Positions 12,117 to 30,362 of a DNA stretch of 35,460 nt are shown here, one piece after another. Origin of the DNA: Halalkalirubrum salinum (GTDB taxonomy: Archaea > Halobacteriota > Halobacteria > Halobacteriales > Haloferacaceae); assembly GCF_005543295.1 (NCBI RefSeq), contig NZ_SRSG01000030.1:1-35460 (forward strand). Direction: 5' to 3'. The notes below the pieces were generated by a model. That model was not told the origin of the DNA. It worked only from the letters and a program-made list of their open reading frames with translations, and made no database searches. The first letter of the stretch is position 1. The number at the start of each line of letters is the position of its first letter. A program made the translations under genes and the position numbers.

Positions 12117-13181
12117 TCACAGCGCAGTGTCTGCGGCTTCGAGTGCGTCAATCGCGGCGTGGAGCTTCTCGCGCAGTGCTGTTCGATCGGCTTCTCGCTG
12201 ATCCTCATCAGCAGCCATAGAGTCTGTTTCAGCGGTGCTGAGTCCGTCAACTACGCCCCAGGCCTCGATTGGTTCGAGATCGTCGTTGAGCGTCTCAGCG
12301 AGTGTCCGCTGTTGGTCGCCGTCAGCCGGGTCAGGCTCAGGCTCACCACTACTGTCGTCGCGGCTGGCGTCTCGATCTGCCGACTCTCGATTGCCATGCA
12401 AAAACACGCTGAGCGGGAATCCGAAGGCACAGGCGCGCTTCTCCTTGTTGAACGTTGTGCGCCGCGAAACGTCTAAGACATCCATGATCGCATCACGGCT
12501 AATACCGCGATTTACGGCCTGCCGCACCTGTTCATCCTCAAATCGCTGTATCAATAGCCGCGGGTCATCGGGGACGTGCCCCCGAGCCGATGTTTCGATC
12601 TGCTCAGAAAGTCCCCACTCACCCGTTTCGATGTCCTTGTCAACGATCTGTTGATCACGCGATTCGACGATATTATCCAAGCCCATCAGTGTCCACAGCC
12701 GTTCGCGGACGGCTGCGACGGACAAATCGATATTTAGCGCGGATACAATATCGCCCGTACGCGCCGGCCCTTGATCTGCTAGATACTGCAGGATCTCGAT
12801 ATCCTGGGGCAGCAGCACATTCAAGTCTGTGTCGGTCAGCGGTGTGGGCGAGTCGGCCGGCGTCGATCGCAGATGGATCCAATTATGGCAGGACCGACAC
12901 AGCGTCGTCAAATTTTGTGGATCGTCTTCGTCGATGTTGTCTGGGTTTCGTTCGATGTGGTGGATATGCAGCGAAGCGAGTCCGCCACGCTCGGGCCCAA
13001 GCCGGCCGCAAATCCGACATTGATGGCCGTCGCGGTCTAACACCTCAGATTGGCGCTGTTGACTCACAGTGCTGTGGCAATTGTCTGGGTCCGGGGTCTC
13101 GGACTCACCGCTATCGGTAGCTTCGGTCTGTTTTCGATGCAACTCGTCGCGGGTCTGATCGGCGGTATTGTTTGTAGCCAT
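12117..13181 (-). CDS. HNH endonuclease of the RAMP (HRAMP-like) operon
   Basis: The 354-residue protein has an HNH nuclease domain at about residues 42-105. CRICG and CRSCH are the two zinc pairs, HIHHIE carries the catalytic histidines, and the final CHNWIH closes the motif. Residues about 125-190 look like a winged-helix (ILQYLADQGPARTGDIVSAL). A further helix-turn-helix-like patch follows (GISRDAIMDVLDVSRRTTFN), then a disordered acidic tail. This is a DNA-cleaving effector with its own DNA-binding modules. It lies 117 bases after the last RAMP gene in the same direction, and a terminator-like signal follows. HNH and other nucleases are reported partners of the HRAMP module; here it would be the only visible nuclease and could replace Cas3 or Cas10. 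Confidence 0.75.
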   Translation of the reverse strand: MATNNTADQTRDELHRKQTEATDSGESETPDPDNCHSTVSQQRQSEVLDRDGHQCRICGRLGPERGGLASLHIHHIERNPDNIDEDDPQNLTTLCRSCHNWIHLRSTPADSPTPLTDTDLNVLLPQDIEILQYLADQGPARTGDIVSALNIDLSVAAVRERLWTLMGLDNIVESRDQQIVDKDIETGEWGLSEQIETSARGHVPDDPRLLIQRFEDEQVRQAVNRGISRDAIMDVLDVSRRTTFNKEKRACAFGFPLSVFLHGNRESADRDASRDDSSGEPEPDPADGDQQRTLAETLNDDLEPIEAWGVVDGLSTAETDSMAADEDQREADRTALREKLHAAIDALEAADTAL

Positions 13182-13298
13182 GATCGGTCTATTGCAATCG
13201 TTGGTAATCGCGTCGCCGGGTAGCTATCCTGTGGTGTATCGCTTCAATTGGATTCTCGGGTGGATCGTCTCAGTGCCGTCGAGCGGTGGTTAGCTGCC

Positions 13299-14279
13299 TC
13301 AGTGATCACCTCGATCAGAAACACGATCATCGCTCGCCGGCCGAACCCAAAGCTCGCCGAAGCCATATCGTGCATGCGTCCCGATCCGCAGCACGCCATT
13401 CTTCGCTGTCTCAATTGGCGCATCGCCCGCATAGCCGACGCGCTGTCCGTGATCGATCGTCTCGATCTCATACACTGATCCATCGGCAGCCAGCCGCTCT
13501 GCGCGCCGGCGCAGCCCATCGCTCGCATCTCGTGTCGGCTCAGTCGTCGAGTCGCTCACGCGGCCATTACGTCCGTCTGAGCGAGCCACGTCCCACCACC
13601 ACGGCACTGACTGGTCATCAGCACCAGGATAGGAACTTGCAGTCACAAATGGCGAGATGAGCTCTATGACGTGCTCATCAGCCGCCGCCAGCCGATCGAA
13701 CGACAACTCGTCGGTATCGATCAGCTGTGAGTCTACGTGCGACAGTGCGCCAAATCCGTAGTTGCGTCCGCCGCCAACCTGCAATCCATCGAGGACCTCT
13801 GCCGGCACCGGCAGGATCTCATCATCAACGGCCGAGCCAGCATGCAGATAACAGTGGACGTACCATCGCACACCCCGTTTCGAAGTAGCGAACTCGGGCG
13901 GTCGGCCAAACCATGTCACAGGCGCAAACGTCACTCGACCGCCGTGGGTCTGCATCGGATGGGCGTTGTGCACATCACGCGGCCGTGACGATTTCAACCA
14001 CCGGTGTGCGGCATCACGTAACAGAAACAAGTCCTCGTAGGACTCGACCGGCGGTAATTCCGATCCGATCTTGCCGAGCGACCCGCTCTGTGAGTGCCAC
14101 GCCGGATACGAGCCGTACTCGCCGGGCAAGAAGACACCGTGGCTCACGCACAGCGCTCGTCGCGTCGCCGACTCAACTCGCTGAGCGATCGCATTGTACA
14201 GCGCATTCCCGGTCACGTAGTACGGATGGCCATAGTACTCGGCGTCCAATTGGAACAGAACCTGTTGGATCCGGCTCAT
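13299..14279 (-). CDS. diverged RAMP protein (Cas5-like, with G-rich loops)
   Basis: The 326-residue protein contains two glycine-rich loops typical of RAMP proteins: LQVGGGRNYGFGALS at about 165-180, and a C-terminal IGTHARYGFGELWV at about 300-313. The end-placed loop resembles Cas5/Cas6 RNA-recognition folds. The N-terminus (YYVTGNALYNAIAQRV) resembles the first RRM helix of such proteins, with a histidine-rich stretch near 120. It starts in the stop of the preceding gene (ATGA). I infer that it is the Cas5 homologue of the HRAMP module, binding an RNA end or capping a Cas7-like filament. Whether it processes RNA cannot be decided from the sequence. Confidence 0.6.
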   Translation of the reverse strand: MSRIQQVLFQLDAEYYGHPYYVTGNALYNAIAQRVESATRRALCVSHGVFLPGEYGSYPAWHSQSGSLGKIGSELPPVESYEDLFLLRDAAHRWLKSSRPRDVHNAHPMQTHGGRVTFAPVTWFGRPPEFATSKRGVRWYVHCYLHAGSAVDDEILPVPAEVLDGLQVGGGRNYGFGALSHVDSQLIDTDELSFDRLAAADEHVIELISPFVTASSYPGADDQSVPWWWDVARSDGRNGRVSDSTTEPTRDASDGLRRRAERLAADGSVYEIETIDHGQRVGYAGDAPIETAKNGVLRIGTHARYGFGELWVRPASDDRVSDRGDH

Positions 14280-15574
14280 CGAGCACCCCCATCAGATCCA
14301 CTCGAACGACGTGACTGCGATGTTGGATCCGTCTCTCCACCACTGCCAGAATTCTTGGGAGCCATGAGGACATGCTGGCCCTCGCCAGCCAGCGATCGGC
14401 GCATGCCATCCCCCGACACTTCTTCGATGAACTGCAACGCCACCGACCACGATCGAATCCGCCGAAGCTGTGCATCCACGACCATCCGCAGGCGTGCGTC
14501 GTCCACCTGAAACGGATGGGCTGGGAGCCGCGACCACACGTCCGCAAACGATCGCGCCGGAGCCGGGCCCAGCGACGCTGCTGGTCGATCGCCGGGGGCT
14601 GCCGTCACATCGATCGTCAACGTCGGCGACCACAATACCGTCTCAAACGACGTCACCGCCTCGCTCGCCCTCGCCGCTGCTGCTGTCCTCGTCTCAGCAG
14701 CCGCCTCACCGGGCGTCACCGCCACATACAGATCCTCGAACGCGTACCCGTCGCGGTACGCCGACAACAAGGCACCCGCCAGCAGTACGTGGTATTTTAG
14801 CGATGTGTACGGATAGAATATCGACTCGTTGAACGCCGCCGCGACGTCGCTCGTGAGCCACGCTGCATGCAACTCCGCCGGATCGTCAGATTGAATCAGC
14901 TCTCGGAATCCACCGTCCGTCGCTGCCAAGATCCGATCAGACTCGGCCATCGCTTCACCGGTGACGAGGGATAATCGGAACGGCGACGCGTGATTCGACA
15001 CCGTCTGCTCGGGCTCGCCCCGTGGCCGGCTCAACAACGCTGCATCCCGATCGGCACCCATCGGGACCGTCTCGTTGACGCGAACGCCATACCACTCGTC
15101 GTGTGCGGCTGTGTGTTCCCGACCACGCAACTTGTGCACGTCGTGGCGGTACACCGCGACCAATGGATCTGCCTCGGTTCCGCCAGTTTCCTCACTCGGG
15201 AGATCCCCCTCTCCCTTCGCAATCTCACTAGGCTCACTCGGGAGGCCCCCCTCTCCCTTCGTAATCTCACCAGTCTCACTCGGGGCACCCCCCTCTCCCT
15301 TCGTAATCTTGCTCGCAAAATCTTCATCTACCCCATCAGGCTCACTCGGGAGACCCCCCTCTCTCTTCCCAATCTTGCTCGGGAACTCTTCATTTTCCTC
15401 GCCAGTCTCACTCGGGACACCCCCCTCTCCCTCCGTAATCTTGCTCGGGAAATCGTCATTTTCCTCGCCAGTCTCACTCGGGACACCCCCCTCTCCCTTC
15501 CCAATCTTGTTCGGGAAATCTTCATCTAACCCACCAGGCTCACTCGGGAGGCCCCCCTCCCCATCACCACTCAT
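14276..15574 (-). CDS. uncharacterised RAMP-operon protein with repeat-encoded N-terminus
   Basis: The 432-residue protein sits between the two RAMP genes with four-base overlaps on both sides. Residues 1-130 are a low-complexity acidic region made of GEGGLPSETG-like units, encoded by the minisatellite at 15193-15560. The folded part starts near 135 (DPLVAVYRHDVHKLRGREH) and includes YPYTSLKYHVLLAGALLSAY and a beta-rich TSFETVLWSPTLTIDVTA. It ends with a helical RMVVDAQLRRIRSWSVALQF before a serine-rich tail. I infer that it is the conserved protein of unknown function reported with the haloarchaeal Cas5/Cas7 pair, perhaps a large- or small-subunit stand-in. The N-terminal extension may be specific to this strain. 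Confidence 0.6.
   Translation of the reverse strand: MSGDGEGGLPSEPGGLDEDFPNKIGKGEGGVPSETGEENDDFPSKITEGEGGVPSETGEENEEFPSKIGKREGGLPSEPDGVDEDFASKITKGEGGAPSETGEITKGEGGLPSEPSEIAKGEGDLPSEETGGTEADPLVAVYRHDVHKLRGREHTAAHDEWYGVRVNETVPMGADRDAALLSRPRGEPEQTVSNHASPFRLSLVTGEAMAESDRILAATDGGFRELIQSDDPAELHAAWLTSDVAAAFNESIFYPYTSLKYHVLLAGALLSAYRDGYAFEDLYVAVTPGEAAAETRTAAAARASEAVTSFETVLWSPTLTIDVTAAPGDRPAASLGPAPARSFADVWSRLPAHPFQVDDARLRMVVDAQLRRIRSWSVALQFIEEVSGDGMRRSLAGEGQHVLMAPKNSGSGGETDPTSQSRRSSGSDGGAR
15193..15560. repeat. in-frame minisatellite: seven G-string units
   Basis: Seven copies of the core CACTCGGGASACCCCCCTC begin at 15193, 15235, 15277, 15343, 15409, 15475 and 15541. The spacings are 42, 42, 66, 66, 66 and 66 bases, all multiples of three. 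On the coding strand each core reads GAGGGGGGTSTCCCGAGTG and encodes GEGG-x-PSE. The 66-base units also share a second half encoding EENDDFPSKI-like residues. The same core recurs outside any gene at 29165, 29392, 29783 and 29874. Confidence 0.9.
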
Positions 15575-16590
15575 CGGCCATCACCCTGCGTATCGTCAGC
15601 AGCACGCGAGTCACTGTCATTTCCACGAGCACTGGCACCATCGATCGCTGGCGGCAGCTCGCCATCCTCGTCGCTCAGCGATTCTTGTAGCGCCCGCACG
15701 AACTCTTTGCGGTACACATCTCGCCATTTTGTGTCTTTTGTCCGCATCGCCGTTGTCGGCTTCTGCGCACGATTATACACTCGGCGAATCTCTCGATCGG
15801 TGTACAGCGGATTTACCAGCCCGACATCCACGATACCCGCGCCGAAATTCCGTGCGCCGCCAAGCTGAAACTCGTACTTGGAGTTGTAGGCGTCCAAAAA
15901 CGACACCGCCTCGATCAGCAACCCAACAAATTCTGGGCGCAAAGATCGTAACTGCAGCAACCACGTTCCTTCGAGGTTCCCGACGACATCACGCGTCGCA
16001 TGCCGCAACGGCTGCCCCCCATCGGCCTCATTCCGCGATCGCACCTGCGTGTGCAACTGGCGGAAATGCGCTTCTGCCTCGCCATTCAGTACATCGACTT
16101 GCCGCCGGATCGGCGAGAACGACACCGGATGCCGGATCAACTCGCCTGGCTTCGACCCGAAGCCACCAAACAACTCGTACACCACACAGCCCGTGTCGCT
16201 ATCGCCCTCATCAACGCAGGATCCTTTCTCGTGATACCCCGCGTCGAGGTCGCGTTCGTACACGTTCGCGCGCTTGTAGTCCGCGTTTGGCTCACCAGGG
16301 TGACAGGCTGTCGCGCCTCCAATCTGCAGCACGCGTTCGCACCCATGGCGCAGCCATCCCGACAAGGCAAACGACGATATCTGCCCGCCAATCTGATTCA
16401 TCGGATCATCCGCCTCGTAGCGATCCGCCGACGCATGATGCCGATCCGTTACGATCCCGTCGCCAGGTGCAAGCAAGTCCGCATCCATCCCGATGTAGAC
16501 CTTGGGGAACGTCGATTCCGACAGCGCCGGCAGATCATATTCGCCATCCAAGTGTGCCGTCTCGAAGCCGTCCGCGTCGGCTGGTCTCAC
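15571..16590 (-). CDS. diverged Cas7-like RAMP protein
   Basis: The 339-residue protein starts at a GTG overlapping the previous stop (GTGA). It has the Cas7/Csm3/Csf2 arrangement. An N-terminal strand-loop reads VYIGMDADLLAPGDGIVTDR. A helix after a conserved glycine (SSFALSGWLRHGCERVL) occupies the place where Cas7 proteins read G-x-LR. A cysteine- and aspartate-rich insert follows (about 125-165). A glycine loop FQLGGARNFGAGIVDVGLV lies near 265-283. Cas7 proteins polymerise along guide RNA as the backbone of class 1 effectors, and that role is inferred here. It may be closest to type IV Csf2 or type III Csm3 among named families. Confidence 0.65.
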   Translation of the reverse strand: MRPADADGFETAHLDGEYDLPALSESTFPKVYIGMDADLLAPGDGIVTDRHHASADRYEADDPMNQIGGQISSFALSGWLRHGCERVLQIGGATACHPGEPNADYKRANVYERDLDAGYHEKGSCVDEGDSDTGCVVYELFGGFGSKPGELIRHPVSFSPIRRQVDVLNGEAEAHFRQLHTQVRSRNEADGGQPLRHATRDVVGNLEGTWLLQLRSLRPEFVGLLIEAVSFLDAYNSKYEFQLGGARNFGAGIVDVGLVNPLYTDREIRRVYNRAQKPTTAMRTKDTKWRDVYRKEFVRALQESLSDEDGELPPAIDGASARGNDSDSRAADDTQGDGR

Positions 16591-17222
16591 GCTACATCAC
16601 CTCCCAGCACATCATCTCCGTCATTTCCGTCAGGTGCGGTCTGGCTGTCGGCTGGGTCGGTATCCGACGCCATCCCCTGCTCGATCGCCGGACCCGGTAT
16701 CTCGCAGTGCATATCCCTTGAATCGGGGTGCGCAGTCTGTGTCTCGTGCGCTTGCTCGTCAACCTCGCTAACGCTCAGCTGATGACTTCCGTTAGCGGGC
16801 CGTGACTGCGCCCGCAGCGCTGCGTATTCTGCCGGTGTGTGCGCTTCACGTGAACCGACTGGGCTCACCAGCTCCACCTCCGGAGCCAGCAGTACTGACT
16901 GTGTGGACTGCGTCGCCGCGTCGCTCACCGTTCCGACCCGGCCCCTGACGATCAGCTCGCGCCGATCGCGGAAGCACGTCATCTCAGCAGTAGTCTTGTG
17001 TTCTTGACAAAAAATTGGACCGGCAGTATACGAAATCGTCGAAATCAGGCGACTAGCGTATACTGCAACCGAATCGCCTTCCTGCACAGGGTCGTCACAT
17101 ACATGACAGGTCTCGTCCCCTTCCCCGATAGCGATATGTTCCAACTGGTTTATATCTTCAATAAATAATTTGTCGATGCCTTCTTGTGCTTTTGTATTTG
17201 AATTTTTCATGGGTTCTTGCAC
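16587..17222 (-). CDS. zinc-binding protein leading the RAMP operon, 211 aa
   Basis: The protein has a zinc-finger-like first third: CHVCDDPVQEGDSVAVYASR, then a CQEH pair about 25 residues later (IFCQEHK). Similar C-x2-C...C-x2-H proteins are common but unnamed in haloarchaea. The rest (about 110-211) is disordered and acidic. It is the first gene of the operon; the next gene starts within its stop. The ATG at 17222 and the one at 17210 (MKNSNTK) are both possible. A TATA box about 100 bases upstream implies a structured leader. It may bind nucleic acid or bridge effector subunits; no function is known. Confidence 0.5.
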   Translation of the reverse strand: MQEPMKNSNTKAQEGIDKLFIEDINQLEHIAIGEGDETCHVCDDPVQEGDSVAVYASRLISTISYTAGPIFCQEHKTTAEMTCFRDRRELIVRGRVGTVSDAATQSTQSVLLAPEVELVSPVGSREAHTPAEYAALRAQSRPANGSHQLSVSEVDEQAHETQTAHPDSRDMHCEIPGPAIEQGMASDTDPADSQTAPDGNDGDDVLGGDVA

Positions 17223-17849: not shown

Positions 17850-19004
17850 CTACTCACCATTACAAGAGGTGCATCGAATCCTATTCGAAATGTATCTAAG
17901 TGGGTTTTCAGCAGACAGAGATCGATTACAAATATCACAATTAACCTCCTCCGTCACGCCAACACCCGTGCCGTATCCCAGTACTAAGGAGGCAATAGAA
18001 CTGCCATCATTTAATTCGAACTCGACATCGCCGCGTTCGTACTCAACTTCGGTAATAGTGACTGGGGTAACGACCACTTCTAATCCGTGTCGGTCACGAA
18101 TCTCACGCTGTTGATCCGGATATCCATGCTCGCGTCGGCGACGTAATTCATTGAGATCGGTCTCAATCTCTTCAAGCTTCGATTTACATTCTCGGCGCTC
18201 TTTCAGTGCCTCAACTCGCTCAGTCTGGTTCTTGTGGTCAATCAACTCGCTGAGATCTTCGATCTTTGACCGAAGACGAGTAATTTCTGTCTCGCACTCA
18301 TCTTCCCGCTGCTGTTGTAATTGCCGGTACTCTTCGAGTTCAGCGTCAGCAGCCCGAGATGCCTCTTGATGGATCTCATCGATCTGTGGTTGTATGGCTG
18401 AGAGAAGCGGTTCCCGGGATGCGTCAACCAAGCGTTCTACCTGTTCCGGTTCGATCGCAATATCCCCAGATTGGATGGTCGCAGATTCCTGTAGCAAGGT
18501 TAGAAAAGTCTCGTCAATGTTTGGGAGAATCTCTGTAGAGCGAACATCGATAGCAATGCTTCGCAAGAACTCTTGTTGATACTCGCTCACGGTCTCAACA
18601 GTTACCCGAAAGAGTACGACCAGTGCGCTTCGATCGTAGTAGGGTGTAAATTCGATGTTTGATACAGAGATTTCACTTTGTTGGAGCCAGTCTGGCACAA
18701 TGACATCTGTGTCACTGGTGTCGATAGAGATGCCACCGATCGGTGCACGGTCGGTTGCGTCGTCAAGAACCGATTGGAAAAACGAGCTTTCAGGGTGGAG
18801 TTGCTCGTACGTCTCGTCTGGTTCTTCGACGGAACCACAGAGAAGAGCGTGTTTGCCTTTCGGTAGGTCTGTCTCCACATTCTCCGGGATAGTTAGCTGC
18901 CACTCATCGCCTTGTATTTCGATCTGACAACCGAGAGACCGGAGATAACTCGCTGTGAAGGTCTCAACTGCAGACTGGGTCACCGGTACGGCGGCGTCAG
19001 TCAT
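17850..19004 (-). CDS. coiled-coil and zinc-ribbon partner of the SNF2 helicase
   Basis: The 384-residue protein starts at ATG 19004, eight bases inside the helicase gene (MTDAAVPVTQSAVETFTASY). Residues 1-190 form a mixed soluble domain. About 200-300 is a long charged coiled coil (EEYRQLQQQREDECETEITR and onward). Near the end comes a zinc ribbon with CDIC and CTSC. The overlap implies one operon and a stable complex. Comparable helicase-adjacent proteins occur in haloarchaeal accessory loci; they may load or regulate the translocase. The family is not named. Confidence 0.6.
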   Translation of the reverse strand: MTDAAVPVTQSAVETFTASYLRSLGCQIEIQGDEWQLTIPENVETDLPKGKHALLCGSVEEPDETYEQLHPESSFFQSVLDDATDRAPIGGISIDTSDTDVIVPDWLQQSEISVSNIEFTPYYDRSALVVLFRVTVETVSEYQQEFLRSIAIDVRSTEILPNIDETFLTLLQESATIQSGDIAIEPEQVERLVDASREPLLSAIQPQIDEIHQEASRAADAELEEYRQLQQQREDECETEITRLRSKIEDLSELIDHKNQTERVEALKERRECKSKLEEIETDLNELRRRREHGYPDQQREIRDRHGLEVVVTPVTITEVEYERGDVEFELNDGSSIASLVLGYGTGVGVTEEVNCDICNRSLSAENPLRYISNRIRCTSCNGE

Positions 19005-20748
19005 CGCTTGCCCCCAGATCGAATCCCTCGAAAACACCGCTATTGAACTCTTCTAATTTCTCAGCGAGATCACGCTGCTCTTGGAGATCGACAGCCATCG
19101 CGTCGAAGTCGTTTTCTAGATCAACCTCAGAATCGGCGTTAACCAAGCGCTCGAAAATCTCGTCCTCGAAGCTTTTCCCAGATTCTTCCAACCGGGTGAG
19201 TATCTCGCTCAGTTCACCGACGCTCTGTTGGAAGAGGTCGATTTTGTGGAACAGACGCTCAAGTACGTACTCTTCGACGGTATCTGTTAATGCCATATTG
19301 AACACGTAGACTTGCCGCTTCTGACCGATACGATGGATCCGGCCAATACGTTGTTCAACGCGCATTGGATTCCACGGGAGGTCCCAGTTCACCAGAATAT
19401 TGCAGAATTGAGCATTCCGTCCTTCGGACATTGCGTCTGTCGAAACGAGAATCCCGCCCTGTTCCTCGAAATTCTCGATGATGTCCTCTTTCTCTTGGCT
19501 AGAGTGACTACCATTGAACGAGTGGACTGTGTACCCTTCTGACAGCAGTCGTTCTGCCACGCGGCGTTGTGTAGCCCGGAACTGCGTGAAGACGATCACA
19601 CGTCCTTTCTCGACGTTCTCACGCGCCTCTTCAACGATATCGAGTAGTCGCTCTTGTTTGGTGACCGCGTCAATGTTATTGATTAAGTCCAAAATCGACT
19701 CTAACTCTTCGGCGTGCGTGAGTTCTGACTGATCGTCGAGTCTCTTCCGAATCGTCGTTTCAAGGGCCTCAGGGCTACTGACGACCTCTTTCTGCAGGAG
19801 CATCAACACCAGTTTCTGTCCTTGGTCCTGACTGTAGGCTCCCTTCACGTAATCGGATACAGCCTGGTAGAGCTCGCGTTCTGCCGGTGATGGATCGAAC
19901 TTCCGTGTGTCAACCCGGCGTTCGGTAAAGTCTACATCTGTGTCTTCACGCCGATTTCGGATCATCACCTTGTTCAGCCGGTCCTGTAGCTCGTTACGGT
20001 TAACGAGGGTTTCCTGATCGCTATTGATGAAGTACTGGTGAAACACGTCACGTGTTCCAAACAGACCCGGACGGAGCAGTGAGACAATGTTGTAGAGATC
20101 AGTGAGTTCGTTCTGTATCGGTGTCGCTGTGAGGAAGAACGCATAATTATACGATAAATTATCAATCAGCTCGTACCGATCCGTCTCCTCGTTCTTCACG
20201 TAGTGGGCCTCATCGAGAACAAGAACGTCCCAGTCGCGTCTGAGCACCGTCTGTCGGTATCTCTCGCTTTTAGCCGTGTCGATGCTGGCGATGATGTAGT
20301 CGTGATCATCAAACCCGCTGAATTCGTCGTCATAGTTGCAGACAAACTCTAAGCCGAATTTCTCTCGGAGCTCTGCTTGCCACTGTTTGGCCAATTGGGC
20401 AGGCGTGAGGATGAGGACGGAGTCGTTGGTTTCGCGGAAATGCATTTCTTTGAGTATCATCCCGACCTCGATCGTCTTCCCGAGGCCGACCTCGTCTGCG
20501 AGTAATGCCTTCCCGTCCATCTCGAACAGAGCCCGGTAGGCTGCATCGACCTGGTGTTCGAGCATCTTGACTGAATTCTCGTCAAGTTGTTTTAGTGATC
20601 GAAGTTCAGAGTCAGGCTGACCGGCTTGTAGACGAACGGCTTGAACAGTATGACGGTGATTTTCACTTGTCTCACTAGGGTCCGCGTACAGAACATCGTC
20701 CACTGGCTCATGGGTGACCTCGATGTCCACGAGGTCAAAATCGCTCAT
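18997..20748 (-). CDS. SNF2/RapA-type DEAD/DEAH-box ATPase
   Basis: The 583-residue protein carries the full SNF2-family set. Motif I is LLADEVGLGKTIEVG (about 83-95), motif II VLDEAHYVK (177-185), motif III LTATPIQNELTDLYN (206-220). Motif V lies in STDAMSEGRNAQFCN and motif VI in RIGRIHRIGQ (about 465-475). SNF2 ATPases translocate on double-stranded DNA without unwinding it. The RapA-like architecture matches helicases seen in haloarchaeal defence islands, including the DrmD class, but no DrmA, DrmB or DrmC gene is nearby. It is co-transcribed with the coiled-coil zinc protein. It may serve the DUF499/DUF1156 pair 2.3 kb away, although an integrase relic lies between. Confidence 0.8.
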   Translation of the reverse strand: MSDFDLVDIEVTHEPVDDVLYADPSETSENHRHTVQAVRLQAGQPDSELRSLKQLDENSVKMLEHQVDAAYRALFEMDGKALLADEVGLGKTIEVGMILKEMHFRETNDSVLILTPAQLAKQWQAELREKFGLEFVCNYDDEFSGFDDHDYIIASIDTAKSERYRQTVLRRDWDVLVLDEAHYVKNEETDRYELIDNLSYNYAFFLTATPIQNELTDLYNIVSLLRPGLFGTRDVFHQYFINSDQETLVNRNELQDRLNKVMIRNRREDTDVDFTERRVDTRKFDPSPAERELYQAVSDYVKGAYSQDQGQKLVLMLLQKEVVSSPEALETTIRKRLDDQSELTHAEELESILDLINNIDAVTKQERLLDIVEEARENVEKGRVIVFTQFRATQRRVAERLLSEGYTVHSFNGSHSSQEKEDIIENFEEQGGILVSTDAMSEGRNAQFCNILVNWDLPWNPMRVEQRIGRIHRIGQKRQVYVFNMALTDTVEEYVLERLFHKIDLFQQSVGELSEILTRLEESGKSFEDEIFERLVNADSEVDLENDFDAMAVDLQEQRDLAEKLEEFNSGVFEGFDLGASDD

Positions 20749-21786: not shown

Positions 21787-22827
21787 TTATACCCTGTTGA
21801 GGGAGTTAGAGTTCCTCAAGATATCCGCGTCGTTTTCCACCTTCTGTTCCTCAGTCCGTTTGTCGTAGTGCTTGTCCAACACGTCCTGCCCAAGGTTCAT
21901 TCGGTGTGAGACAACTTTCTCAGGGACGTCTTCAGATAGATGCCGGGTAATGCTCCCGCGTCGTATCGCGTGGGAACTCACATTTGAGGGACACTTGCTG
22001 TATCCCCATACTGTGCCGCTTCACACTCATCTGTATCCCTATCGTGCGGACACTCTTCACCGTAGTAACAGGGGCGGCTCGCCCTGTAGACGGCATCTCG
22101 AATACAGGATTTCGCTAGTCTTCCGCGCACACTTGTTAGGAGTGGCTCCCGACCGTGTTCATATGTGGCTTCAGGGCGTTGATGTTCAATCCAATTCTCT
22201 ATAATCCGGCAGACTTCGGGAGTTAGAGCGACTATTCGCTCGCCTTCATTCCCCGTTCTTTAGCGGAGTTCCTCTATCCGGGCAATTACGAATCTCAAGA
22301 CGTTCCTTCTCGCTATCGTAGTCACTCACATATAGTGAATAAAGTGACCCAAGGCGAATCCCCGTGTGCCACAGAAGTTCCAAGATGACGTGCCACCGTG
22401 ATGTGTACTCAAAACGCCGGAGATACGCAAGCACTTTTTCGGCATCTTCTGAGCGAAGAATCTCTTCACTTTGCTCATCATCCTTCTTCAGCACCGGCAT
22501 CACAATCTTGTCGTGAAGCCCTTTCTCAACGGCGTCAATTGACTCACACCACCTCAGAAAGATACGGAGCGCATCTAGTTGTCCCCGAAGTTTGATGGGC
22601 TTCAGGCCGTTCTCATCCCGACGCCACGTTTTGAACTCTTGGAGTTTCCGCCCCGTGAGTTCGTTCATATTGTCTATGCTCGCTTCATCAACACACCACC
22701 GGACGAAGTGCTTGAGGCGGTAATGATACCCGGAGAGGGTACTCTCGGATACTTCGTGTTTTCGTGCCTCAAGATACATCTCCTTCGCACGTCCCAGTGA
22801 TATGGGTTCTAGCTCGCGTTCGGTCAT
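21787..22827 (-). pseudogene. tyrosine recombinase (XerC/D-like integrase), two frameshifts
   Basis: The minus-strand reading starts MTERELEPISLGRAKEMYLE and keeps a core-binding domain, then the catalytic arginine (HTGIRLGSLY). It runs to GTPLKNGE and a premature stop at about 22246. One base on (in a GGGG run), the homologous frame resumes: EGERIVALTPEVCRIIENWI, continuing to ECPHDRDTDECEAAQYGD. A second shift near 21995 leads to SHAIRRGSIT (the HxxR motif) and LDKHYDKRT with the catalytic tyrosine. All catalytic parts are present but in three frames, so the gene is inactive unless the shifts are assembly errors. It lies beside a tRNA-like sequence, as integrases do. Confidence 0.8.
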
Positions 22828-23029: not shown

Positions 23030-26000
23030 ATGTCGGGAGCACACTCCCTGTCTAAGACTCTTGAGGACACGGTTACCCTCAGCCGTGAGCTTCGAGAGGA
23101 CGGACAGATAGACGGGCAGGTAAAACTCTACAACGTGGATGACGAGAACGAGTTCGAGTCTGACGCCGAGCTCTTTTTTGATCGCACATTAATGACTCAA
23201 GGGCTTCGAGAGGCCTTATCGATCCTCCGCGATTCGCTGACCGGTGATGATCCTCGTGGTACACACATTCTCTACGGGCCCTATGGGAGTGGAAAATCCC
23301 ACCAGATGGTGGCGTTGTACCATTGTTTCAACGAGCCCGTTGCTGCAGGTTCATGGGCGGCCGAGGAAATCGAGGGGTTCGAATCAGCGCTTCCGGAGTC
23401 GGCTATCCCGATTACGGTCGCTATACAGAACGAACAGTACGAATACCTCTGGGAGCCGTTTTTTGATGCACTTGGCTACGACCCTGGGACATACGAGTCC
23501 GGTGGTTACCCGGACATGCAGACGATTCAGGACGCCGTCGGCGACGACACCGTCGCATTCTTTGTCGATGAGCTTGAGGACTGGTTCGATACGTTACAAG
23601 GTGACCGCAAGAGCGCGAACAAGGCTTTCCTCCAATCTTTACTCGAATCCACTGCACTGTCGGATTTAGAGCTTTACACTATCGTCTCTGTTCTCCGTGA
23701 GGGCTCCGAAGTTCACGATATTCTGAACCGGGAACAGGCAGTTGAGGTCAACATGAATAACCAGGTGGACAAGCGGGAGGTTCTCCACCACCGATTGATA
23801 GATGACACTGACGAATCAGCCGCCCGTGAGATCGTGAACGGGTACTTCGACGCCTATGATCAGTCAGATCACGTCAACATGCCTGACAACCTTCTCTCAG
23901 AGATGCACGACCTCTACCCGTTCCATCCTGTTCTCCTTGATGCGCTTGAGACACGATACTACGCTGATGAGGGGAACCAGAACACGCGCGGGATGATCTA
24001 TCTCTTCTCGAAAGTTCTTCTCGAAATGCAGAACCAGACAAACCTGATCACCCACGGAGATATCGATGCGATCGAGTTTGAGGGCGAACTCTCCAAGATC
24101 AATTACGAACGACTGAACGCTGCGACCGGCGACATCAAGAATCGGGTAAATGAAGACGATGTTCCCCACGGTCGCCGCATTCTCAATACGATTCTCCTAT
24201 ACTCGCTGAAGCCGAGCGAGGGGGAAGGCGCGGGAGTTTCGGAGATCGTGATGGGGGCATACCAAACAGGGGGCCTTGTTTCCGACGTTGTACTTAACCT
24301 CGAACGACTACACGGCGTCGCTTGGCACCTCCACAAGCTGAACGGAAAATACGCCATTCGGGATCGTCAGAACCCGAATGCACTCATTCGCAATGCCGCA
24401 GTCGATGTCTCAGAGCGATCAGCGAAGGCCGAAGTCGCCGACTTCATCACCGATATCTTCGGGTCGAGTGCGTATCCTGTTGGTTTCCGAACTGACGATA
24501 TCCGAGACGTCCCTGACGACCGCGACATCAAGATCGTTGTGAAGGATGACCAGTGGACACAGGAAGAAGTCAAGCGCGTCATTACGAATGATAAACGTGG
24601 ACGGGAGTGGCGGAACACGCTCGTGTTCGTGCAGCCATCCGGTGACAAGGCGATTGAATCCGGGACTCGATATATCGATAAGGCACGGTATGTCGAAGGT
24701 GCCCGTCAAGTCCTCGCCGACGAATCTCTTGATGACGAAATCCGCGAGTCGATTCAGTCGATGAAGGACCAGGAAATAAACGAACTCCGTGAAGAGTTGC
24801 AGTTGCTCTATGGCGAAGTTTTAGACGGTGACAATCTACTCCAAGAGTTCAATCTCGCGGCACCGATGGATCTTGATGTCTACATCTCCGATGGACCGGA
24901 ACTCGATGCTTCAAATATAGCTGATTCTGCGGCGGCCGATCCTTTCGATCTGCAGACTCACGTATGGCACATAGTGTCGGACCTGATCGAGCGTCGCGGT
25001 GAGATCTCGATCGAGGACGTGTACGAGCAGTTTCTCCGTGACCCAGAACTCCCGATTCCCGGAAGCGCAAACGATGTATTAAACGCAACTGTGGAAGCCA
25101 TCGATGGGAAGCCCGTATTAGCTCGTGACTCTGGCGGCTTCCGTGACGACCTCTCGGGCAGTTCGCTTGATACCGTCTTGGTCCGGAAAGAGGACGTGGA
25201 CGTGTGGGGCGTGGATGAAGTCGAGCAGGAACTCCGACAGCGATTCGGAAGCGGGACCACAGCGCTCGATATTGGTGACTTTGAGTTAGAGCTGGTTGAG
25301 GATGGTGAGATCTGGCTTGATGGCGACAGCCATGATGTTGTGATGCGTGCCATCGGCCGACTGAACCGCGAGGACCAGTACGTGGTCGTTCGAGGTAACG
25401 AGATTCTCAATAAACCACAGTCGGACGCGACACTCCGGGATGTCGGGAGCGCGACGACTGTCGGCGGGTCGTATCTCGCCGACCGTATTGGAGAGGCAAT
25501 CGAGGCAGAGGGATACGCAAGCCTCGAAACGATCATCGGCGAGATTCGCGCGGACGAATCGGTGTTCCTCCCGCCAGACGAAACCGAGACGGCAGCCCGC
25601 GAGGCAGTGAACGAATTCCTCATCGACGAGTACGTGTTAGAAGCTGGCGGGCGGTATTTGGACTCTCTCGGCGACCGGAACCCGATGACGGTGAAGATCG
25701 TTCCCACTGTTTCCGACCGGATCGGCAAACAGATTCTAGACTATCTAAACGACCTTGATACCGGTGACCAGTTCACCGTGACCAAGGTCACCGATCGGTT
25801 CGACAGCTCCGTTACGGAGGACATGGTACAAACATTCCTGCTGCAGAACCTCGGCCGTGAGGAGGAACCAGTGTACGTCGTCGGGCCAACAGGGTCCGAG
25901 AAGTCGTCGGATTGGGTGCCGGGGTATCCGTTCCGGATCCCCGATGTCGGTTCAGAGACATGGCGGTTTGAGTACAACGGCGACGATGTTGCCGCCATGC

Positions 26001-26236
26001 GCAGGAAGTGGCGACGGGACCACCAGACCGGAACTGTCGAGTACGGCGATGTGACATTCATGCTTCCGGAGCGGGAGGGTGTTCCCAGCGTGCTTCAAGG
26101 GACGGCAGACATCGAACGCTCGCAAGTCAGTCTGACGCTTCGATCCGAGCAGGAGTACACCAAGGTACAGGACTTGTTTGAGCGAATGCCCGACCAGGCG
26201 TCGAGTCTAAAAATCGAGATTAGCTTCCAAAAGTAA
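23030..26236 (+). CDS. DUF499-type P-loop ATPase of a methylase-linked system
   Basis: The 1068-residue protein has a Walker A motif ILYGPYGSGKSHQM (about 80-93) and a Walker B-like VAFFVDELEDWF (about 174-185). A conserved patch LYPFHPVLLDAL follows near 298. The middle holds a long ATPase-associated region; the C-terminal half has winged-helix-like segments (VWHIVSDLIERRGEISIEDV) and a beta-rich tail. This is the COG1483/DUF499 type of large ATPase, usually next to a DUF1156 methylase, as here 167 bases downstream. It likely couples ATP hydrolysis to DNA sensing or movement. A TTTTTATC box lies 33-40 bases before the ATG. BrxC/PglY-type ATPases of BREX have a similar size but different partners. 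Confidence 0.7.
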   Translation: MSGAHSLSKTLEDTVTLSRELREDGQIDGQVKLYNVDDENEFESDAELFFDRTLMTQGLREALSILRDSLTGDDPRGTHILYGPYGSGKSHQMVALYHCFNEPVAAGSWAAEEIEGFESALPESAIPITVAIQNEQYEYLWEPFFDALGYDPGTYESGGYPDMQTIQDAVGDDTVAFFVDELEDWFDTLQGDRKSANKAFLQSLLESTALSDLELYTIVSVLREGSEVHDILNREQAVEVNMNNQVDKREVLHHRLIDDTDESAAREIVNGYFDAYDQSDHVNMPDNLLSEMHDLYPFHPVLLDALETRYYADEGNQNTRGMIYLFSKVLLEMQNQTNLITHGDIDAIEFEGELSKINYERLNAATGDIKNRVNEDDVPHGRRILNTILLYSLKPSEGEGAGVSEIVMGAYQTGGLVSDVVLNLERLHGVAWHLHKLNGKYAIRDRQNPNALIRNAAVDVSERSAKAEVADFITDIFGSSAYPVGFRTDDIRDVPDDRDIKIVVKDDQWTQEEVKRVITNDKRGREWRNTLVFVQPSGDKAIESGTRYIDKARYVEGARQVLADESLDDEIRESIQSMKDQEINELREELQLLYGEVLDGDNLLQEFNLAAPMDLDVYISDGPELDASNIADSAAADPFDLQTHVWHIVSDLIERRGEISIEDVYEQFLRDPELPIPGSANDVLNATVEAIDGKPVLARDSGGFRDDLSGSSLDTVLVRKEDVDVWGVDEVEQELRQRFGSGTTALDIGDFELELVEDGEIWLDGDSHDVVMRAIGRLNREDQYVVVRGNEILNKPQSDATLRDVGSATTVGGSYLADRIGEAIEAEGYASLETIIGEIRADESVFLPPDETETAAREAVNEFLIDEYVLEAGGRYLDSLGDRNPMTVKIVPTVSDRIGKQILDYLNDLDTGDQFTVTKVTDRFDSSVTEDMVQTFLLQNLGREEEPVYVVGPTGSEKSSDWVPGYPFRIPDVGSETWRFEYNGDDVAAMRRKWRRDHQTGTVEYGDVTFMLPEREGVPSVLQGTADIERSQVSLTLRSEQEYTKVQDLFERMPDQASSLKIEISFQK

Positions 26237-26403
26237 GGGAATCAAAGCTGGCTATTGTGTAATTCCAATTTAGACTTGAGAGTCATAACTGAAAGAAATG
26301 TGTGACGAATTGCGGATTTAGACCTGAGCCCCTACAATCCATTCCGACGACTGAGAATGCACACTTATGAGGGTCCTGAATAATCCATATCACATACTGA
26401 ATC

Positions 26404-29076
26404 ATGTCTGAGCAATCTGGGTCCTCGCAGGAACGGCACGAGCGTACGGAACTCCCCATCGAGCGGGGGTTCCCAATCGAGCGCGTGAACGAAATCGCCG
26501 AGAAAGAGGGCCGGGCGAAAATGTACTACCGGCCCATCTACACGATGCACAAGTGGTGGGCACGACGCTTGGGCTGTGTCTTCCGTGCGATCTCTCTGTA
26601 CACCCTCCTCGACGATCCGGAGAAGGTCTCAGTCTACGAGCCAGGCCACGAGGGCGGCACGCTCGCGGCCTACGGTGACGACGCCGACGGCAAGTCTGAT
26701 CTCGACGTTGCGTCGCTGCTCGAACGGGTGGACATGTCCAACCCGGAGAGTCTCTGGGAGCTCTATCCGAAAGACGTTCGCATTGAGGACAAGAAGATTC
26801 TCGATCCATTCATGGGTGGTGGCACATCGCTCGTTGAGGCATCCCGCTTCGGCGCGGAAGTCGTCGGAAACGATCTAAATCCCGTCGCTTGGTTCGTCAC
26901 AAAGAAGGAACTCGAAGCTGGCCAGACTAACGTCGAAGAACTTGAGAAAGCCTTTGAGCAGGTGAAAGAGAACGTCGCTGGCGAGATTACACAGTACTAC
27001 AAGACGCCCTGTCCGAACGGCGACCACGAGGCGGACGTGATGTACAACTTTTGGGTACGAGAACTCGATTGCGTTTCTTGTGGCCATACTGTTCCATTAT
27101 TCAAAGATTATCGCGTTGGGAAAGGCCGATATGGGGACAACAAGGGGACATACAGTGTTTTCTGTCCGGATTGTGAGTCAGTTGTCAATGTTGAGGATTG
27201 GCAAAGCGAATCAGTCTGTAGCGAATGTGGGAACTCCTTCGAACCCTCTGATGGAAACGTTGGGAGAGGGAATTACCACTGTACAGATTGTGGTCAAAAA
27301 TATTCAGTCACTGATGCTGTGGCAGAACAAGACGGCTACGGTCTCAGCCTATACGCTCTTGAATATTACTGCGGTATCTGTGACGAACAGGAAAGGAATC
27401 GGGCAGAAGTGAAAGGTTATAAGCGAGCAGAGAGGGTTGATCGTGAACTCGCACAAAGGGCCCGGAAGGAATGGAACGAAGCGGACGACCTCAAAGAGTT
27501 CGTCCCTCAGAGCGGAATCGCACGAGGAGCAATTACCGAATCCTCATCTATTAGCGGAAACGATCTGTTTCAACATGGGCTTGAAGATTGGACCGACGCC
27601 TACAGCCCACGACAACTTCTATGTCTCTCGAAGCTTCTTCGGTCGATAAGCGAGGTTGAGAGTGAGAATGTTCGAGAGTATCTTCTACTCGCATTTAGTG
27701 ATATGCTCCGGACCAACAACCTTCTGGTTGGTTACCAACACTCGAATAACCATATTAATGATATTTTTCAGACAAATTCTTTTGACGTACCACAGGAAGC
27801 AGCAGAGGCGAACGTCTGGGGAACAGAGTATGGAATGGGAACGTTCCAATCTATATGGGATATGATAATTAACGGCGTCAAATACGCTAGTGGCCCTACA
27901 GAACGATGGGTCGACGGTGGGGAAAAGAAAGAGACACCTGAGTTTGCACAACGAATCGCCGAGAACTTCTCACTCTCGCAGGGCGATATGCGCAATCTTG
28001 ACTTCGAAAACGAATTCGATGCGGTCATTTCTGACCCTCCGTACTACGATAATATTATTTATTCGGAGGTATCTGACTTCTTTTACGTCTGGCTACGTCT
28101 ACTCCTAAAAAACAAGTACGAGTGGTTTAGCCCCGACTACACACCTCGAACTGAAAGTATCGTCTCGAACCCTTCCGAGGGGAAAGATGTAGAAGATTTT
28201 GAGATAGAACTCAGAGAAGGGTTTGAAGTAGTTCACAAAAGCCTGGTTGATGATGGCGTCTTGACTTTCACCTACCATCACAGCGACTCTGAATCGTGGG
28301 GTGAATTACTCGAATCACTGTGTAATGTTGGGTTCGAAGTCACAGCCACCTACCCGATAACAGCTGACTTACATAAGTTCATTTCCGGCGAAGCAGTCTC
28401 TTTTGACATTATTGTTGTCGCCCGTCCGATCGACGACACAGAGCCTGCCTCGTGGAAGTCGCTTCGCCGCGATATCTACCGTACGGCTCGACAGACCCGC
28501 AGACAACTTGAGGAAAACCGTGATCTCTCCCGCGGTGACATCGGTGTGATGGAGATGGGCGCGTGTTTCCGTGAGTACTCCAAGCACCACGGGAAGGTAC
28601 AGCGCGACGGCGAGATCATGTCGGCGAAGGAGGTCGTCCAAGAAATCTACGGAATCATTCAGGAGGCCAGTGACATTGGCGTCGAAGACGTATTTATTGA
28701 CTTACTCGATAGCCCCGGCCCGTCGTTTGACGACGTTAACAAGCTTTGTCGCGGCACCAACGCCACACCAGAGGATCTCAAAGGAATGTGCCTGTACAAC
28801 ACCGACGACGGCTTCGAACTCGGCAAGTGGGACAATGAGAAGCGCCAGGCGTACATCCAAGAGCGAACCAATGGTAACGGTGATGAGCACCTCTCGAATC
28901 TCGACAAGCTCCAATTCCTCCGGTACCGATACGAGAAGGGACAGGCCGTACAAAACTACGTTGACAAGTGGGGCGTCGATGACGATCTGCGTGAGCTTGC
29001 CGGGCGGCTCGCGGACGTGACCGGTGATGACGCCTATACGCGCGTGCTCGGCGATCGGGACATCACGAGTTACTGA
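26404..29076 (+). CDS. DUF1156-type DNA methyltransferase with zinc ribbons
   Basis: The 890-residue protein opens with the DUF1156 signature (FPIERVNEIAEKEGRAKMYY and HKWWARRLGCVFRAI). Methyltransferase motif I is LDPFMGGGTSLVEA (about 133-146), with NDLNPVAW next. Residues about 203-330 hold five CxxC pairs (CVSC, CPDC, CSEC, CTDC, CGIC), a zinc-ribbon cluster probably for DNA contact. Motif IV is DPPYYDNIIYSEVSDFF near 544, which fits N6-adenine or N4-cytosine methylation. COG1743 proteins of this kind travel with DUF499 ATPases and helicases. Composition is mosaic: the stretch from about 27065 to 28420 is visibly AT-richer at third positions than both flanks, suggesting exchange of the target-recognition part. 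Confidence 0.8.
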   Translation: MSEQSGSSQERHERTELPIERGFPIERVNEIAEKEGRAKMYYRPIYTMHKWWARRLGCVFRAISLYTLLDDPEKVSVYEPGHEGGTLAAYGDDADGKSDLDVASLLERVDMSNPESLWELYPKDVRIEDKKILDPFMGGGTSLVEASRFGAEVVGNDLNPVAWFVTKKELEAGQTNVEELEKAFEQVKENVAGEITQYYKTPCPNGDHEADVMYNFWVRELDCVSCGHTVPLFKDYRVGKGRYGDNKGTYSVFCPDCESVVNVEDWQSESVCSECGNSFEPSDGNVGRGNYHCTDCGQKYSVTDAVAEQDGYGLSLYALEYYCGICDEQERNRAEVKGYKRAERVDRELAQRARKEWNEADDLKEFVPQSGIARGAITESSSISGNDLFQHGLEDWTDAYSPRQLLCLSKLLRSISEVESENVREYLLLAFSDMLRTNNLLVGYQHSNNHINDIFQTNSFDVPQEAAEANVWGTEYGMGTFQSIWDMIINGVKYASGPTERWVDGGEKKETPEFAQRIAENFSLSQGDMRNLDFENEFDAVISDPPYYDNIIYSEVSDFFYVWLRLLLKNKYEWFSPDYTPRTESIVSNPSEGKDVEDFEIELREGFEVVHKSLVDDGVLTFTYHHSDSESWGELLESLCNVGFEVTATYPITADLHKFISGEAVSFDIIVVARPIDDTEPASWKSLRRDIYRTARQTRRQLEENRDLSRGDIGVMEMGACFREYSKHHGKVQRDGEIMSAKEVVQEIYGIIQEASDIGVEDVFIDLLDSPGPSFDDVNKLCRGTNATPEDLKGMCLYNTDDGFELGKWDNEKRQAYIQERTNGNGDEHLSNLDKLQFLRYRYEKGQAVQNYVDKWGVDDDLRELAGRLADVTGDDAYTRVLGDRDITSY

Positions 29077-29164
29077 GTGTCGGTTCTGCTCCGCTGACTA
29101 GTCCACGCAGCGGTATTCTTTGTGACGGTGTGCCCTCAATTCATATTAGAGTAGTATGGGGGAA

Positions 29165-29181
29165 GGGGGGTCTCCCGAGTG
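29165..29181 (+). repeat. G-string element 1
   Basis: GGGGGGTCTCCCGAGTG, same core as the minisatellite at 15193-15560 (coding-strand sense). Confidence 0.8.
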
Positions 29182-29391
29182 TAGATGGTTGTAGACAGGT
29201 GATTCAGGCTATTAGCCGGTGATTCAATTTTTGACAAAACTCAATATACACCCGATCATATAACTGTCTCGCAGCGGATGCTGCCATCACGATCGTGTCG
29301 CTGCCCGGAATCGTCTTCGAACGTCGTCAGGTAGTGATTGATCGATAACTGCCGTGCGCTCACTGTGATCAGATCATATTTGGCGGGGGGA

Positions 29392-29408
29392 GGGGGGTGT
29401 CCCGAGTG
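29392..29408 (+). repeat. G-string element 2
   Basis: GGGGGGTGTCCCGAGTG, preceded by further G-runs (GGCGGGGGGA). Confidence 0.8.
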
Positions 29409-29459
29409 AACATGCGAAAAAACGGTGGGTTGGTAGCAATCCCATGAATACACACTACG

Positions 29460-29477
29460 TATAAACCCGGGTTTATA
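29460..29477. promoter_or_regulatory. 18-bp perfect palindrome with back-to-back TATA-like arms
   Basis: TATAAACCCGGGTTTATA is a perfect inverted repeat at the left edge of the AT-rich core. Each arm reads TTTATA outward, so it could be a protein-binding operator or a bidirectional promoter. Confidence 0.4.
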
Positions 29478-29741
29478 TTTACCTCACGTTAGTCTAACTA
29501 TCAAAATAAATAGATTTACTGTACTGCCTTCGTTAGCAGTTTGTACCGGTTTTAACCCACTTCTGCTTTACTACTGTTTGTCTACTACTGCTACTACTAC
29601 TATTACTAATCGAAAACGTTATATTAAACGTTAAAGAGCAATCGAAACAGATCAGTGAGATAGGAGGGTGTATGGACGGGATACGTGCTAAGACGTTGTT
29701 TTGACGCTGTTTTAGTGGGGGAAGAACCCGCCAAAAGGTGT

Positions 29742-29768
29742 GTTTCATGTGGAACGAGGGGGTCGCCC
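29742..29768 (+). promoter_or_regulatory. origin-box-like dyad plus G-string, copy 1
   Basis: GTTTCATGTGGAAC (29742-29755) is an imperfect dyad followed at once by GAGGGGGTCGCCC. A dyad followed by a G-run is the form of haloarchaeal origin recognition boxes. The dyad also resembles a bacterial parS site. Confidence 0.45.
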
Positions 29769-29782
29769 TTCTTATCGATTTT

Positions 29783-29799
29783 CACTCGGGGCACCCCCC
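29783..29799 (-). repeat. G-string element 3
   Basis: Plus strand CACTCGGGGCACCCCCC, the reverse complement of the left-side elements. Confidence 0.8.
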
Positions 29800-29834
29800 T
29801 CCCCCCCTTCGATGAAATAATCCACCAAAGGCAC

Positions 29835-29859
29835 GTTCCATGTGGAACGGGGGTCTCCC
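29835..29859 (+). promoter_or_regulatory. origin-box-like dyad plus G-string, copy 2
   Basis: GTTCCATGTGGAAC (29835-29848) followed by GGGGGTCTCCC. This is the second copy of a tandemly duplicated unit of about 92 bases (dyad, G-string, spacer, inverted G-string) that starts near 29731 and 29822. Confidence 0.5.
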
Positions 29860-29873
29860 TTCCCAGCGATTTA

Positions 29874-29890
29874 CACTCGGGACATCCCCC
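29874..29890 (-). repeat. G-string element 4
   Basis: Plus strand CACTCGGGACATCCCCC. Together with GGGGGTCTCCC at 29849 it forms an imperfect inverted repeat. Confidence 0.8.
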
Positions 29891-29947
29891 TTCCTCCCCT
29901 CCGTCTAAACGAGGAACTAATTCATTTCACTAGGCGACAGCAACCCG

Positions 29948-29957
29948 TTTTTTATCC
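29948..29957 (+). promoter_or_regulatory. TATA box of the 127-aa gene
   Basis: TTTTTTATCC lies 22-31 bases before the ATG at 29979. Confidence 0.45.
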
Positions 29958-29978
29958 TGTGAAACTGTAAATTAATCA

Positions 29979-30362
29979 ATGGCAGAACCCGGACGCATCC
30001 CCGGCCGCTACAATCTCGTCATTGAGGGGACGTACGACACCTTCGATCACCGAATGCCGATCGAGGAGTTTACCAAACGGCTTCAGAATGACGATGTCCC
30101 AGAAGAGGTCTCCGTAATCGGACTTGAAGAGGCTCTCTCGGACGACGAACTCCGAGCCGACCTCAAGACAGCGATGGATCGACGGGCGAACGATTTGGAG
30201 TATCAGAACCCGACAGTGCAGTTCGTCGTTGAGGGATCGTTCCATCGCCAGGGGAAAACATTCGATCTCCGCTACAATGACCGGCTCCACTCGTTACAGG
30301 ACGTGTTCGGTCCACAAATCGAACGGAAAGAGGACGGAAACTGGCTTGTTACGCCCTTCTGA
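29979..30362 (+). CDS. hypothetical protein, 127 aa
   Basis: The small soluble acidic protein begins MAEPGRIPGRYNLVIEGTYD and ends in a beta-rich segment (TVQFVVEGSFHRQGKTFDLR). It lies 902 bases after the methylase in the same direction, has its own TATA box, and ends nine bases before the convergent mcrC gene. The family is not recognised. Its place between a methylase and a McrBC pair, and codon use like the flanking GC-richer genes, suggest that it belongs to the island, perhaps as an accessory or control protein. Confidence 0.5.
   Translation: MAEPGRIPGRYNLVIEGTYDTFDHRMPIEEFTKRLQNDDVPEEVSVIGLEEALSDDELRADLKTAMDRRANDLEYQNPTVQFVVEGSFHRQGKTFDLRYNDRLHSLQDVFGPQIERKEDGNWLVTPF

Follow-up and report, generated by a model that had tools for sequence, protein, structure and literature searches.

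A cluster of inverted G-string elements with the layout of a haloarchaeal replication origin, and with no initiator gene beside it, lies in an intergenic slot of a defence island. The window, i.e. the whole stretch of DNA that we analysed, is one complete contig (C34; 35,460 bases) of a haloarchaeal draft genome that comprises 62 contigs and 3.4 Mb, with a completeness of 99.8%. We tentatively read the cluster as orphan elements resembling origin recognition boxes (ORBs), i.e. as an origin module that would have come from a plasmid or virus without its initiator gene and would now be non-firing cargo of the island. An origin captured without its initiator is the safest reading of the data presented below.

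Layout of the cluster, its slot and its relatives

The inverted G-string elements flanking a core that the initial annotation had described are real: the G-element GGGGGAGGGGGGTGTCCCGAGTGWAAAT is present in four copies, which pair up as inverted repeats on both sides of a core of moderate AT content. The inner left arm (W2, 29385-29414, + strand, containing GGGGAGGGGG) and the inner right arm (W3, 29778-29806, - strand) are 93% complementary over 29 bp; for the outer left arm (W1, 29158-29187, +) and the outer right arm (W4, 29864-29897, -) the value is 82% over 34 bp. The core motif GGGGGNNNCCCGAGTG, with up to 2 mismatches allowed, was found 11 times in the window (0.65 expected), four times in the cluster and seven times within the ORF at 14276-15574 (-). 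Two dyads that are each followed by a G-run, also noticed at the outset, are indeed found on the + strand at 29742-29762 (GTTTCATGTGGAACGAGGGGG) and 29835-29853 (GTTCCATGTGGAACGGGGG); in shuffled sequences the expected number of such dyads with G-runs (GTTTCATGTGGAACGAGGGG at 29742, GTTCCATGTGGAACGGGGG at 29835) is 0. The proposed tandem duplication of about 92 bases on the right side proved real as well: a module of 91-93 bp, made up of dyad and G-element, is repeated at 29734-29917 (29734-29826 versus 29827-29917), with 69 of 90 aligned bases identical (77%), far above shuffles. The numbers of G-elements and dyads and the duplication are beyond chance.

The core (29415-29777) had been called AT-rich, which is true only to a modest degree: it contains 58% A/T (at most 68% per 100 bp), a value reached by 11% of all stretches of the same size in the window, compared to 71% in the core of the genome's own oriC1 and 63% in that of its origin on contig C17. 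Within the core we found a CTA/CTG triplet run (29582-29608) and, at its left end, a perfect 18-bp palindrome TATAAACCCGGGTTTATA (29460-29477), possibly a divergent TATA/operator element. A search of the cluster for a conserved structure or a terminator gave nothing above shuffles.

The whole window is a composite HRAMP/Hma/McrBC defence island. An operon at 12117-17222 (-) encodes an HNH nuclease, a Cas5/Cmr3-like protein, the 'mid' protein, a Cas7/Csm3-like protein and a zinc-finger-like protein. It resembles HRAMP, an array-less CRISPR derivative (PMC8730458, PMC12669027), in combining diverged Cas5 and Cas7 homologues with a nuclease (weak Cmr3 and Csm3 profile matches plus HNH), the assignment being made by gene content and host range rather than by the published HRAMP profiles. 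This five-gene block is conserved in the loci compared, and the Cas7-like protein is found in 45 of 170 genomes of the family. The same island holds an SNF2 helicase (HmaA/DrmD/BrxH-like; 18997-20748, -), a DUF499 ATPase (HmaC-like) with a DUF1156 methylase (HmaB-like; together 23030-29076, +), and McrB/McrC and an Mrr-type nuclease. Adjoining the DUF499 gene is a XerC-like tyrosine recombinase of 193 aa (22246-22827, -) whose C-terminal part is apparently missing. In Halosimplex pelagicum (L013:1-20381) the helicase, DUF499, DUF1156, a 127-aa protein, McrBC and the HRAMP genes form one block, which suggests a composite defence system. A circular plasmid contig was considered for the window and rejected, as the contig ends do not overlap.

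The cluster lies in the 902-base gap between the end of the DUF1156 methylase gene (29076), about 80 bp from its left edge, and the start of an ORF for the 127-aa protein (29979-30362, +), which is unassigned to a family and has relatives in 33 of 170 family genomes. In all four relatives read, this slot carries a different cargo, whereas three of the four, and also G097 and G224, have a conserved promoter region (about 29934-29978) ahead of the 127-aa gene; the origin-like stretch is therefore inserted cargo outside that operon. The conserved promoter region reads GACAGCATCCCGTTTTTTATCCTGTGAAACTG in the closer relatives.

Relatives of parts of the cluster were found by Blast searches of the stretch against the 170 family genomes (E values 1e-8 to 1e-11). 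The left arm W1, together with about 55-100 bp of flank, is homologous to single arms in three genomes (G354, G015 and G357; 75-85% identical) of what we call the Halorubrum group, an inferred label for genus g2, and the right module has a relative in G201 (76% over 95 bp). Pattern searches of 391 genomes of the class added single sites in G259 and G038 and a second one in G015. Nearly all of the Halorubrum-group genomes with such single arms have HRAMP; some of the arms abut MITEs, and none lies beside an orc gene. In fact, across seven genomes no orc gene is near a related arm, the nearest being about 38 kb away (G354). A MITE-like element with inverted ends starts on the core side of the arm in G357 and G201, and in G354 and G015 the arm is followed by the same end sequence; because the MITE-like element begins at this position in the former two, the single arms look like truncated remains of a complete cluster that survives in the window. 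Matches of plasmids to the Halorubrum arms were rejected, since their alignments cover the neighbouring MITE-like ends and not the arms. For the whole stretch we found no plasmid relatives and only seven chance-level phage matches, all to one short piece, and exact pattern scans of viral contigs gave apparent chance matches or none.

Initiators and known origins

That no initiator gene stands beside the site holds for the entire window, which contains no orc gene. Elsewhere in the genome, Orc/Cdc6 matches map to contigs C8, C17 and C46, with three on C46; a further match, on C10, stays below the family cut-off. The orc-linked origins of the genome follow a similar plan, with inverted G-string arms around a 325-bp core on C17 and a 160-bp core on C8, yet the repeats beside the orc genes on C8, C46 and C17 (TTCCAGTTGAAACAAAGGGGTGGGGGG, AACGATTGAAACAGTGGTGTGT, GACAGACGAAACGTACTCTCT and TTACAACTCGAAAAAGGGGGGAGAGGG) differ from the G-element. 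The orc-linked, origin-like region on C17 (L018:6983-7746) comprises at least five TTTTCGAGTTGTAA repeats on the same strand and, on the far side of an AT-rich core, an inverted one.

A G-element profile, built on ten sites (nine score 32-36 bits; the tenth, shifted by one base, 16), reached at best 12 of 38 bits at 36 loci around orc genes in eight genomes. No ORB-type match to the G-element was seen beside the orc genes of this genome and seven relatives, a negative that is strong but incomplete, because for many orc genes only about 600 bp upstream were covered. An active origin is thus unsupported. Two loci with the motif near orc genes were not counted as origin elements: in the first, the motif sits where the orc coding region begins; the second has just one copy, about 180 bp upstream. 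The dyads had been described as having the form of haloarchaeal origin recognition boxes, a claim that did not withstand the comparison with an oriC1 ORB profile, on which dyad 1 scores 8 bits (28-36 bits for real ORBs). Aligned as well as possible to the oriC1 ORB consensus, the dyads reach no more than nominal significance (p about 0.015 against shuffles, uncorrected and for two copies that are not independent).

The closest known systems include the haloarchaeal origins adjacent to orc/cdc6 genes, with their ORBs and halophile G-strings (oriC1, oriCa and oriCb families; Wu et al. 2012, PMC3528665): like these, the cluster is intergenic and has inverted G-string elements around a core, and like Hla_3512 and HQ2959A, as described there, it brings together ORB-like elements of two kinds. 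In contrast to these origins it has no adjacent orc gene, no match to any ORB family among those examined and a less AT-rich core, and its element also occurs within a protein gene. With the oriC1 enhancer of Haloarcula hispanica, which consists of G-rich inverted repeats inside the origin (PMC3936714), the cluster shares the GGGGAGGGGG/CCCCCTCCCC inverted pair, but in the cluster there are four copies and the G-string is joined to CCCGAGTGWAAAT. The dormant origins of Haloferax mediterranei (oriC4-cdc6H; PMC4595724) are similar to the cluster in being probably acquired and probably silent; unlike it, they have an adjacent cdc6 and can be activated. The origins studied in H. hispanica and H. 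mediterranei rely on their own linked cdc6 (PMC3936714; PMC4595724). As published haloarchaeal origins depend on such a linked gene, the cluster is unlikely to fire by itself.

We suggest the following sequence of events. An origin module of haloarchaeal layout would have been captured from a plasmid or virus, the initiator gene not being carried along, and kept as non-coding cargo in the variable slot of the composite HRAMP/Hma/McrBC island. Lacking a cognate Orc1/Cdc6, the cluster would most likely be silent; if it has a present role, it might serve as a decoy or regulatory array bound by an initiator-type protein, presumably of the Orc family, that is supplied in trans.

Repeat elements in HRAMP operons

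The seven motif copies outside the cluster are tandem G-elements (15191-15559, -; steps of 66 and 42 bp) in frame at the N-terminus of the HRAMP mid gene, 14 kb from the cluster, where they encode GG(V/L/A)PSE-type repeats in the first ~125 codons. Cluster and HRAMP gene are the only places with G-elements found in genome-wide searches of this genome. The mid gene of the sister species G075 contains five G-elements, and these N-terminal codons are missing from all other orthologues compared, i.e. among the compared loci they are specific to this genus. In coding and intergenic copies alike, a variable triplet (TGT, TCT or TGC) separates the G-run from CCCGAGTG. If the G-element were purely an origin element, its seven in-frame occurrences in a protein gene would be difficult to account for.

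Of the eight genomes that contain real G-elements, seven have HRAMP, compared to 45 of 170 in the whole family (binomial 6e-4, kinship not considered), and the distance from G-element to HRAMP is 13-45 kb in G000, G357, G038, G015 and G259. The association does not amount to a clean statistical test, because the cases from the Halorubrum group belong to a single island; in the other genomes read, the surroundings of HRAMP (10 kb) are free of G-elements.

A different kind of repeat occupies the gap between mid and Cas5 in the HRAMP operons of nine other genomes, as 2-5 direct copies of CA(C/G)T(G/T)GAAAC(A/G)GGGTGTGTG with steps of mostly 45 or 48 bp. Such repeats (CASTKGAAACRGGGTGTGTG) are located at e.g. 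L142:11884-12092, L144:8608-8817, L145:8139-8187, L150:11499-11566, L154:7984-8077, L271:1448-1661 and L275:1501-1568. In the 170 genomes, 22 of 24 matches to the repeat fall in the mid-Cas5 gap. In six Halorubrum-group genomes (L292-L297), one family of orc genes is preceded by inverted ORBs, TTTCACCGGAAACACGGTGTGTGTCTC, which share 15-18 of 20 bases with the HRAMP repeats, depending on the variant (reversed control 0). A coding origin of the mid-Cas5 arrays was rejected, as they are located past the mid stop codon and their frames carry stops. The intervals within the arrays were not treated as CRISPR-like spacers either, the steps being mostly 45 or 48 bp and some of the intervals mutually similar. 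For these intergenic arrays, 'ORB-like' is a better term than 'CRISPR arrays'. HRAMP has been published as array-less (PMC12669027), whereas short direct-repeat arrays are found in the operon here and in the nine other genomes, ORB-like in those nine. A match of the cluster dyads to the mid-Cas5 repeats was not significant (p 0.06-0.4).

Competing readings and implications

The captured-origin reading itself has to face that no Orc family was found with the G-element as its ORB (flanks of ~600 bp for many orc genes), that the dyads are only nominally similar to oriC1 ORBs and fail the profile, and that the core is only modestly AT-rich. A less probable but serious possibility is that the G-element is the HRAMP island's own recognition sequence, either DNA bound by HRAMP/Hma or a guide-like repeat RNA, so that the resemblance to an origin would be coincidental or exapted. 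The copies in the mid gene of both species, at an N-terminus that other orthologues lack, the over-representation of HRAMP among genomes with G-elements with linkage in five of them, and the repeat arrays of the other nine operons all speak for it. That the other HRAMP operons examined have no G-elements in their 10-kb vicinity argues against it, as does the single chromosomal island shared by the Halorubrum cases, which are not independent; in addition, the modules fold as single-stranded DNA no better than shuffles. The triplet variants common to coding and intergenic copies would fit, yet sequence exchange explains them too.

The initial annotation had offered an orphan origin or the remnant of an integrated plasmid, which fit the layout and rank among the better readings, while the G-element is the ORB of no Orc with examined flanks and never adjoins an orc gene. 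A working orphan origin fired in trans by Orc1/Cdc6, e.g. from C8 or C17, is improbable in our view. The layout, a faint likeness between the dyads and oriC1 ORBs and the visual resemblance of the G-element and the C17 ORB speak for it; against it stand that none of the Orc proteins of this genome has a well-matching ORB here (orc flanks partly covered), that the origins studied in H. hispanica and H. mediterranei need a linked cdc6, and that no clear skew reversal is seen at the site. We give equally little credence to a non-autonomous mobile repeat or recombination site spread through defence islands. It would account for the presence of the element both in several islands and within a coding region and for the MITE-like elements abutting two Halorubrum-group arms, but the copy number in the genome is low and no target-site duplication around the cluster is obvious by eye. 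A ParB/parS partition site, also raised at first, is extremely improbable, although dyad 1 matches the bacterial parS consensus at 13 of 16 bases (dyad 2 at 11): the 99.8%-complete genome encodes no ParB_N domain protein, while 10 of 14 control genomes were positive, and for ParB_N-type proteins this reading is therefore rejected.

With the captured origin as the preferred reading, the cluster is a caution against calling origins from motif layout alone. Even as a relic it means that complete origin-shaped modules can be captured without their initiator and kept in defence islands. The most interesting reading would be that HRAMP islands gather origin-recognition sequences to some end. It is rather unlikely, though conceivable, that HRAMP islands systematically carry ORB-like arrays and that HRAMP would act on, or be controlled by, origins and Orc1/Cdc6 initiators; the arrays concerned would be the direct repeats between mid and Cas5 (nine genomes), the G-elements in the mid gene (this genus) and the full inverted cluster. 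HRAMP might then, for example, recognise plasmid origins, with ORB-like arrays as decoys or guide templates. If the repeats are functionally tied to HRAMP, they would provide the first concrete handle on how an array-less CRISPR derivative chooses its targets, which would be selected via the origin sequences or the initiator proteins of incoming replicons.
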